A DNA stretch of 64,000 nucleotides from Miltoncostaea marina (GTDB taxonomy: Bacteria > Actinomycetota > Thermoleophilia > Miltoncostaeales > Miltoncostaeaceae): NCBI RefSeq assembly GCF_018141525.1, contig NZ_CP064655.1:1550001-1614000 (forward strand). The letters are read 5' to 3'. Under the pieces are notes generated by a model. The model saw nothing but the letters and a program-made list of their open reading frames with translations, was not told where the DNA came from and ran no database searches. Below are positions 33,004 through 35,993 of this stretch, in pieces. Each line of letters opens with the position of its first letter. Within the stretch, counting starts at the first letter, position 1. The translations under genes and the position numbers were made by a program.

Positions 33004-34146
33004 CTACTGGCGGACGGGCTCCTCGGCCTGGTGGCCGGCGGCGGGTGCCGCGCCGCCGGTCTGGCTCGAGCCGTCGCGGCCGGCGATGAACGCCTCGGTG
33101 AGGTCGTGCGCCTCGGCGTCCGGGTGCTGCACCGGCGGGCTCTTCATGAAGTACGACGACGGGCCCTCCAGCGTGCCGCCGATGCCGCGGTCCATCGCGA
33201 GCTTGGCGCAGCGGACGGCGTCGATGACGATGCCGGCCGAGTTGGGCGAGTCCCACACCTCGAGCTTGAGCTCGATGTTGATCGGCACGTCGCCGAAGCC
33301 GGCGCCCTCGAGGCGGATGTGGGCCCACTTGCGGTCCGTCAGCCACGGCACGTAGTCGCTCGGGCCGATGTGGACGTCGTCCTTGGCGATCTCGTCGTCG
33401 AGGATCGAGGTGACCGCGTTGGTCTTGGAGATCTTCTTCGACTCGAGCCGCTCGCGCTCGAGCATGTTGAGGAAGTCCGTGTTGCCGCCGAAGTTGAGCT
33501 GCGAGGTGTGGGCCAGCTTGACCCCGCGCTCGCGCATCAGGCGGGCGAGCTGGCGGTGCACGATGGTCGCGCCCACCTGGCTCTTGATGTCGTCGCCGAC
33601 GATCGGCAGGCCGCGCTCGGCGAAGCGCTGCTGCCAGTACGGCTCGCGGCCGATGAAGACCGGCACGCAGTTCACGAACGCGCAGCCGGCGCGCAGGATC
33701 TGCTCGACGTACCACTTGGTGGCGTTCTCCGAGCCGACCGGCAGATAGCTCACGACCACGTGCGTGTTCGTGTCGCGCAGGATGCCCGCGATGTCGGCGG
33801 TCGGGCCGTCGGCTTTGGTGATGACCTCGGAGAGGTACTTGCCGAGGCCGTCGTGGGTCATGCCGCGGTGCACCTCGACGCCGAGATTCGGCACGTCGCA
33901 CAGCTTGATGGTGTTGTTGGGCTCGGCGAAGATCGCGGCGGACAGGTCCGTGCCGACCTTCGTGGCGTTGATGTCGAACGCCGCCGTGAACTTCACGTCG
34001 CGGACGTGGTAGCCGCCGAGGTCGACGTGCATGAGCCCCGGCACGAAGCCCGCGGGATCGGCGTCCTTGTAGTACTCGACGCCCTGCACCAGGGATGCGG
34101 CGCAGTTGCCCACCCCGATGATCGCTACGTTGACGGTGTCGCTCAC
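33004..34146 (-). CDS. ino1: Inositol-1-phosphate synthase
   Basis: Makes L-myo-inositol-1-phosphate from glucose-6-phosphate with NAD, the entry to inositol lipids and mycothiol-type thiols in actinobacteria. It has 380 residues. The NAD-binding N-terminus [16 protein letters not shown] is standard. The central [12 protein letters not shown] and the [10 protein letters not shown] segment belong to the active site, and the [20 protein letters not shown] stretch is conserved. A GTG start with a GGGAG ribosome site is chosen; the open frame upstream to 34698 is a shadow of the divergent gene. Transcription probably starts in the symmetric divergent promoter at 34196-34226, giving a leader of about 40 nt. 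Confidence 0.93.
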
Positions 34147-34195
34147 GCGTTGCTCCCTCTGCTGTCGGTGCGGCCCTTGCACGAACTCTTTCGCG

Positions 34196-34226
34196 TTTTT
34201 ACACCAAACGGCCTTTAGTGTAAAGT
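34196..34226. promoter_or_regulatory. Symmetric divergent promoter/operator between ino1 and the recombinase-like gene
   Basis: TTTACAC (34198-34204) and GTGTAAA (34218-34224) form a perfect inverted repeat 13 bp apart in an AT-rich island. On the + strand TTTACA (34198-34203), a 17-bp spacer and TAAAGT (34221-34226) make a good promoter whose -10 ends 8 nt before the GTG at 34234. On the - strand TTTACA (34224-34219), 17 bp and TAAAAA (34201-34196) face ino1. Each -35 overlaps the other promoter's -10, so the two cannot be used at once. Confidence 0.65.
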
Positions 34227-34233
34227 CGCGGTC

Positions 34234-34839
34234 GTGGACCGGCCGCTCATCGGATACCTGCGCGTCGCGCCCCGCGAGCGGGCGGCGGACCGGCCGGGCC
34301 TGGACGCCCAGCGCGCCGAGCTGGAGCGCGCCGCCCGCGAGCGCGGGTGGCGCCTGGTGCGCGTGGAGGAGGACGTCCGCTCGGGGCGCAGCCTCCGCCG
34401 GCCGGGCCTGCGCGCGGCGCTCGCGGCATGCCGCGCGGGCGAGGCCGAGGGTATCGCAGTCGCCCGGCTCGACCGGCTGACCTACTCGCTCACCGACCTG
34501 GCCGAGCTGGTGCGCGAGGCGGTCGACGGCGGCTACACCCTCGTCGCGCTGCAGCCGGAGGTCGACATCTCGGCCGACGGCGGCCGGGCGGTGGGGGAGG
34601 TGCTCGCCGAGGCCGCCACCTGGCACCCGCGCGCGAGCACCACCGTCGGCCGCGCGCTGGCCGGCCGCCCCGGCCGGCCGTCCTCGACGCCGCCGCACGT
34701 GGCCGCGCGCATCCGCGAGCTACGGGGGCAGGGCATGACGCTCCAGGCGATCTGCGACACCCTGAACGCCGAGCAGGTGCCCACGCCGCGCGGCGGCGCC
34801 GAGTGGCGCCCCACCTCGCTGCGCTCCGTCCTGCGCTAG
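34234..34839 (+). CDS. Serine-recombinase homologue lacking the catalytic serine; probable DNA-binding regulator
   Basis: A 201-residue protein with a resolvase catalytic fold (2 to about 125) and a recombinase-type C-terminal DNA-binding segment (about 153-201, [19 protein letters not shown], then [10 protein letters not shown]). The family motif Y-x-RVS reads YLRVAP, so the nucleophilic serine is Ala12. In the LDRLxR motif (residues 79-84) the final Arg is Tyr84, and the Glu-Arg pair after the long helix is lost. Arg10, Asp80 and Arg81 remain. It should bind DNA but not cut it. It is divergent from ino1 behind a shared symmetric promoter, suggesting a repressor of ino1 and itself (inference). 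Leaderless GTG start. Confidence 0.75.
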
Positions 34840-35625: not shown

Positions 35626-35681
35626 GGGTCCTCCCGGGGGTCGGAGCGCATCGTACGTCGTCGCCGTCGGCGCACGGGCCG

Positions 35682-35933
35682 GCGCCGAGTGGCGCGCGGG
35701 GGGATCCGCGCCGAATGGCGCCCGCGGACGGCGACAAGTGGCGCGCGGGGGGTCCGCGCCGAATGGCGCCCGCGGACGGCGACAAGTGGCGCGCGGGGGG
35801 ATCCGCGCCGAATGGCGCCCGCGGAGGGCGACAAGTGGCGCGCGGGGGATCCGCGCCGAATGGCACGCAGGAACGGCGCCACGTGGCGCGCTCGGCCGAC
35901 GCGGAGCGGCCCGCCCCCGGCGCCGAGTGGCGC
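35682..35933. repeat. Tandem palindromic array, about 48-bp period made of two ~23-25 bp half-units
   Basis: Copies of a core GCGCC-N4-GGCGC (or GCGAC-AAGT-GGCGC) begin at 35682, 35708, 35731, 35756, 35779, 35805, 35828, 35853, 35876 and 35920. GAAT and AAGT spacers alternate in the middle of the array. Steps are 23 bp and 25-26 bp in alternation, giving a 48-49 bp super-period. The copy at 35876-35889 (GCGCCACGTGGCGC) is a perfect 14-bp palindrome. The 368-bp gap 35626-35993 contains no gene. Confidence 0.9.
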
Positions 35934-35993
35934 ACGCGGTCGACGACGATCGGCGCGCGACCCACGGCGGCCCCCCGGGACACGCGCCGGCGG

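Follow-up and report, generated by a model that had tools for sequence, protein, structure and literature searches.

We propose that a serine recombinase homologue of Miltoncostaea marina has been exapted as a dedicated local transcription factor that represses its own gene and the divergently transcribed ino1 gene and carries out no recombination, a reading to which we assign a probability of about 0.78. The gene encodes a protein of 201 amino acids from a GTG start and occupies positions 34234..34839 on the forward strand of the 64,000-nucleotide stretch analyzed here (the window), which derives from a genome assembled as a 3.37-Mb single contig. Its divergent neighbor and predicted target, ino1 (33004..34146, reverse strand), encodes a putative inositol-1-phosphate synthase of 380 amino acids; this name was taken from the initial annotation and from the sequence.

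In both ancestry and fold, the 201-amino acid protein is a member of the serine recombinase superfamily. A Pfam scan matched residues 6-130 to the Resolvase family (PF00239, E=6.5e-21, 75.4 bits) and residues 157-201 to the first half of the Recombinase family (PF07508, a partial match with 24.1 bits against a cut-off of 21.1). These were the only two families above the cut-off, and LacI-type DNA-binding and ligand domains were absent among the matches. The predicted structure, with a mean pLDDT of 80.9, comprises a resolvase-like N-terminal domain (residues 1-130), a linker (131-149) that is disordered at 133-149, and a three-helix DNA-binding domain (150-201, with helices at 154-165, 170-179, and 193-200). 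Its best Foldseek matches are serine recombinases, headed by the catalytic domain of the TP901-1 integrase (3bvp, E=2.5e-08), the best match in the PDB (TM 0.82 on the target). These results bear out the initial annotation, which had described a recombinase fold with a preserved C-terminal recombinase segment. Helix E, which as a long helix is a dimerization feature, appears truncated near W130-P132; in the monomer model, a helix at residues 115-127 lies at its position, and confidence is low beyond it.

The catalytic apparatus is incomplete. Residue 12, at the nucleophile position of the Y-x-R-x-S motif, is alanine; residue 84, at the second arginine of LDRLxR, is tyrosine; and WHPR occupies the place of the Glu-Arg pair of helix E. 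With the nucleophile, one catalytic arginine, and the Glu-Arg pair all missing, we would not expect strand exchange. Orthologues were found in 12 of the 42 genomes of the order, counting the source genome, with the other eleven proteins 59-85% identical, and a thirteenth comes from a different family of the class (G222). The three losses, first noticed in the single protein, recur throughout this set, and none of the orthologues has an intact catalytic set: the nucleophile position is alanine in 12 of them, including G222, and glycine in one (Gly12 in G006), whereas tyrosine replaces the second arginine of LDRLxR and the Glu-Arg pair is missing in 13 of 13. In the rest of the phylum we found no orthologues, and the five matches outside the class (E<=1e-25, 397 genomes) retain both the serine and the LDRLxR arginine. 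The genomes compared are nearly all drafts, one per species.

Loss of catalytic residues is the expected first product of decay, and the gene could be a decaying recombinase remnant that lies beside ino1 by chance, with the nearby dyad described below owned by another regulator of ino1. We consider this very unlikely. The 13 orthologues are full length, share the substitutions, and form one clade with 100/100 support in the tree, separate from the intact homologues. Pairwise dN/dS values among them range from 0.035 to 0.26, far under 1, and conservation peaks in the DNA-binding domain, with 59% invariant columns in the orthologue alignment, compared to 25% in the N-terminal domain and 6% in the linker. 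These comparisons indicate that the clade evolves under purifying selection and that the catalytic loss was fixed in one clade; the decay reading thus appears already disfavored, and catalysis, judging from the sequences, was lost, yet not through decay. Among the twelve orthologues of the order, R10, R52, D80, and R81, which by numbering matched by eye are the equivalents of R8, R45, D67, and R68 of gamma-delta resolvase, are invariant. As these several residues persist, the active-site pocket appears to be only partly dismantled.

The 87-bp gap between ino1 and the pseudo-recombinase gene holds an imperfect inverted repeat (34192..34230) with 17-nt arms that are 82% complementary and 5 nt apart. 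At its center is a dyad, TTTACACNAA-N7-TTNGTGTAAA, whose core (34200..34222, TACACCAA-N7-TTAGTGTA) we consider the predicted operator. At up to 3 mismatches the core occurs once in the window, against 0.02 sites expected; the source genome has no other site within 1 mismatch, and hence nothing that would point to a wider regulon. Two weaker half-sites, TGCACGAA...TTCGCG (34178..34197), form a second pair 22-23 bp upstream of the first and are present as an exact dyad (N5) in G020 and G021. Elsewhere in the window, a G+C-rich unit that includes GCGCCGAATGGCGC and GCGACAAGTGGCGCGCGGGG recurs in imperfect copies between genes at 35676-35940.

A promoter scan of 34000-34400 returned one site only, TTTACA-N17-TAAAGT (34198..34226, forward strand; none expected in shuffled sequences), which we assign to the regulator. 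Its -10 hexamer ends 7 nt ahead of the GTG, so the regulator mRNA is probably leaderless, and in the dyad-bearing orthologues the start, located by eye, is 6-11 nt past the corresponding hexamer. On the reverse strand, a candidate ino1 promoter, TTTACA-N17-TAAAAA (34196..34224), falls within the same dyad; it was read from the sequence and is absent from the scan output. It is the weaker promoter match, with 4 of 6 positions matching in the second hexamer. Both hexamers of the regulator promoter overlap the extended dyad, a position typical of a repressor site, and this layout favors repression. The initial annotation had singled out 34196-34226 as the DNA to be examined for binding of the protein; the dyad and the overlapping promoter are indeed found there, although neither had been described.

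Comparison across genomes connects the dyad to the gene. Nine genomes have the core TACACNAA-N7-TTNGTGTA ahead of the orthologue (with one mismatch in G017), and ino1 is the divergent neighbor in eight of these. With up to 1 mismatch allowed, 10 of the order's 12 genomes with the orthologue have the dyad and the remaining 30 genomes lack it, and the reversed control pattern has no match in the 42 genomes. Adding a relaxed pattern (N4-9), which was searched across the class, brings the count to 11 of 12 against 0 of 30 (Fisher p 2.8e-9, an inflated value, since some of the genomes counted had themselves supplied the pattern). The dyads of G008, G013, and G222 are independent of pattern construction. 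In G222, a dyad occupies the promoter of the orthologue itself. The regulator gene of G008 and G013 is away from ino1, behind trp genes, and its own promoter has no dyad; instead, the relaxed pattern places dyads, with spacings of 6 and 9, 16-24 bp ahead of a gene for a CDP-alcohol phosphatidyltransferase (PF01066, tested in G008) that is followed by ino1. Most other class-wide matches to the relaxed pattern contain CGAACNNNNGTTCG, which we take to be LexA-box-like, and do not track the regulator gene. G013 counts among the ten genomes at up to 1 mismatch through a 1-mismatch site (L044:1501-1523; G013:C182:8995-9017) that precedes a citrate-synthase-like gene by about 150 bp, whereas its exact dyad is at the ino1 operon; the 1-mismatch site is likely a chance match but may be a second target.

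The connection to ino1 itself is common, not universal. Eleven orthologue-bearing genomes within the order have a detected ino1, and in ten of them the gene or the operator is tied to it: in eight the genes are divergent neighbors, and in two the operator stands in trans ahead of the ino1 operon. The eleventh, G007, belongs to the same genus as G008, and its operator is not visible because ino1 is cut at a contig end and its start is lost. The regulator's own promoter is without a dyad in G007, as it is in G008 and G013, so autoregulation is not universal. Two genomes with both the gene and a dyad, G006 (94% complete; dyad at G006:C37:36723-36745) and G222 (82% complete), yielded no ino1 at E<=1e-8, so in G006 control of ino1 is not the sole use of the system. 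The initial annotation had named two sequence findings that would count against its reading, orthologues with a complete catalytic set and a lack of conserved linkage to ino1, and neither turned up. The orthologue gene is, however, almost confined to the order and is not spread across Thermoleophilia.

In 21 genomes of the order, ino1 is present and the regulator gene is absent, and none of the 21 has the dyad; by eye, ino1 in these genomes follows a conserved reading frame resembling the same phosphatidyltransferase. The dyad appears to follow the regulator gene, not ino1, and this speaks further against a decaying remnant beside a site that belongs to another ino1 regulator. A conserved candidate operator at the promoter, tied to the presence of the regulator, is what would be expected of a dedicated transcriptional regulator.

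Under the repressor model, the C-terminal recombinase-type helix-turn-helix domains would bind the dyad, probably as a dimer, and the bound dimer would cover the -35 and -10 elements of the regulator promoter along with the overlapping divergent ino1 promoter, such that both genes are repressed. Where the gene is elsewhere, the protein would act in trans, at the copy of this dyad that precedes the phosphatidyltransferase-ino1 operon. Repression would be relieved by a signal. From the arrangement of these sequences we infer that the protein binds DNA, that it represses and does not activate, and that a signal relieves the repression. Our guess is that this signal could be a phosphorylated metabolite bound by the arginines that remain, R10, R52, and R81; in active serine recombinases, these residues hold the scissile phosphate.

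The direction of control could conceivably be the opposite, with the same protein on the same operator activating ino1 at inositol shortage and repressing only itself, although we regard this as unlikely. The characterized regulator of ino1 in Corynebacteriales, the LacI-type protein IpsA, is an activator with myo-inositol as its effector (PMC3899939); in the window the ino1 start is about 53 bp downstream of the dyad core, and the weaker upstream half-sites are on the ino1 side. However, a classical activator would not fit at the dyads of G008 and G013, which precede the opening gene of the ino1 operon by 16-24 bp, and the window's own candidate promoter for ino1 is inside the dyad. IpsA resembles the predicted repressor in being an actinobacterial ino1 regulator whose binding motif at the ino1 promoter is palindromic (binding is predicted in our case), and differs from it in belonging to an unrelated family, activating ino1, having further targets, and responding to a known effector. 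Because IpsA is released by myo-inositol, an inositol-related effector is plausible by analogy for the pseudo-recombinase as well.

The initial annotation had called the gene single-copy. This is correct for the orthologue but not for serine recombinases in general: the source genome, and no other of the order's 42 at E<=1e-15, encodes a second, intact serine recombinase at 2149943 that is 37% identical to the pseudo-recombinase. This copy and the intact relatives in G212, G364, and G418 are short serine recombinases with one PF07508-type domain and the same two-domain build, with 37-44% identity to the pseudo-recombinase; unlike the latter, they retain the serine, the LDRLxR arginine, and the Glu-Arg pair. 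Ahead of their own genes, the relatives in G212, G364, and G418 have 26-bp dyads, GTATAGCAA-N8-TTGCTATAC, GTACAGCAA-N8-TTGCTGTAC, and GTACATAAA-N8-TTTATGTAC, respectively, each unmatched in 60 shuffles. Their shared half-site, TAYANNAA, also fits TACACNAA of the catalytically dead clade. Most other intact relatives have no significant dyad of the TAYANNAA-N8 form. These few cases suggest that the operator may be a derived recombinase site. The three dyads have even spacing (N8), which suits a crossover site with a 2-bp overlap, whereas spacing in the dead clade varies among 6, 7, and 9.

This kinship raises the question of whether the protein still rearranges DNA, through another residue or with a partner recombinase such as the 2149943 copy, the dyad being its crossover site. 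The dyad, at about 27 bp, is indeed near the size of those beside the intact relatives, and the active-site residues R10, R52, D80, and R81 are retained. We nevertheless give this reading a very small probability: the serine, one arginine, and the Glu-Arg pair are absent from every orthologue, the dyad spacing is odd or variable among orthologues, and an intact copy is available only in the source genome among the 42; most carriers have one strong dyad per genome, so there is no partner site. A role in a mobile element was likewise considered and rejected, in agreement with the initial annotation, which had seen no such context: there are no plasmid relatives, and the single phage match is distant (28.7%) and annotated as a DNA invertase.

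The closest precedent for the proposed arrangement is the Tn3 resolvase TnpR, which binds res between the divergent tnpA and tnpR genes and represses both (PMC7157771). In both systems, serine recombinase sites lie between two divergent genes and cover both promoters, with repression of self and neighbor, which is proposed in the present case. TnpR is, by contrast, an active resolvase in a transposon, whereas the pseudo-recombinase lacks catalytic residues, is chromosomal, and adjoins a metabolic gene. Another member of the superfamily for which loss of catalysis is predicted, the poxvirus F16 protein (cited in PMC4304020), is viral and nucleolar, has an obscure role, and is not known to be linked to transcription of a metabolic gene. 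RNA-guided transcription factors are a further case of machinery related to mobile elements being reused as transcription factors; they descend from TnpB nucleases and, unlike the pseudo-recombinase, are RNA-guided and have no recombinase fold. In the literature searched, mostly non-subscription papers, we found no bacterial case of an inactive serine recombinase acting as a regulator.

Seven more homologues in the class lack the serine and form a separate clade (support 100/99). Two of these Resolvase proteins (L106:5330-7123 and L107:7256-8962, both on the reverse strand, from G352 and G283, respectively) begin with a hydrophobic stretch, carry two PG_binding_1 domains, and have a further hydrophobic segment near residues 237-264, after which comes the Resolvase domain. 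Their layout suggests regulators that cross the membrane, with a peptidoglycan-binding portion outside and a dead recombinase inside. Other members of this clade are encoded at L105:7154-8119 (reverse strand, G233), L104:6174-7649 (forward strand, G227), and L103:8309-9211 (reverse strand, G209); one of these has an N-terminal hydrophobic segment and one a second resolvase-like stretch. A tentative extension, which we consider possible but doubtful, is that Thermoleophilia converted the recombinase chassis to transcription factors at least twice: once to a cytoplasmic repressor of inositol synthesis, with an operator derived from a recombination-type dyad and a phosphate-binding arginine pocket now sensing a phosphorylated metabolite, and once to a membrane-spanning, peptidoglycan-binding dead recombinase with a helix-turn-helix, which would be a new one-component architecture.

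If the repressor model is correct, loss of catalysis would have made a site-specific recombinase a metabolic regulator whose operator is still recognizably kin to a recombinase dyad, and this step from enzyme to regulator would become experimentally accessible. The model would also give an actinobacterial order a named regulator of inositol synthesis, and genes annotated as "recombinase family protein" may, in some cases, encode transcription factors.
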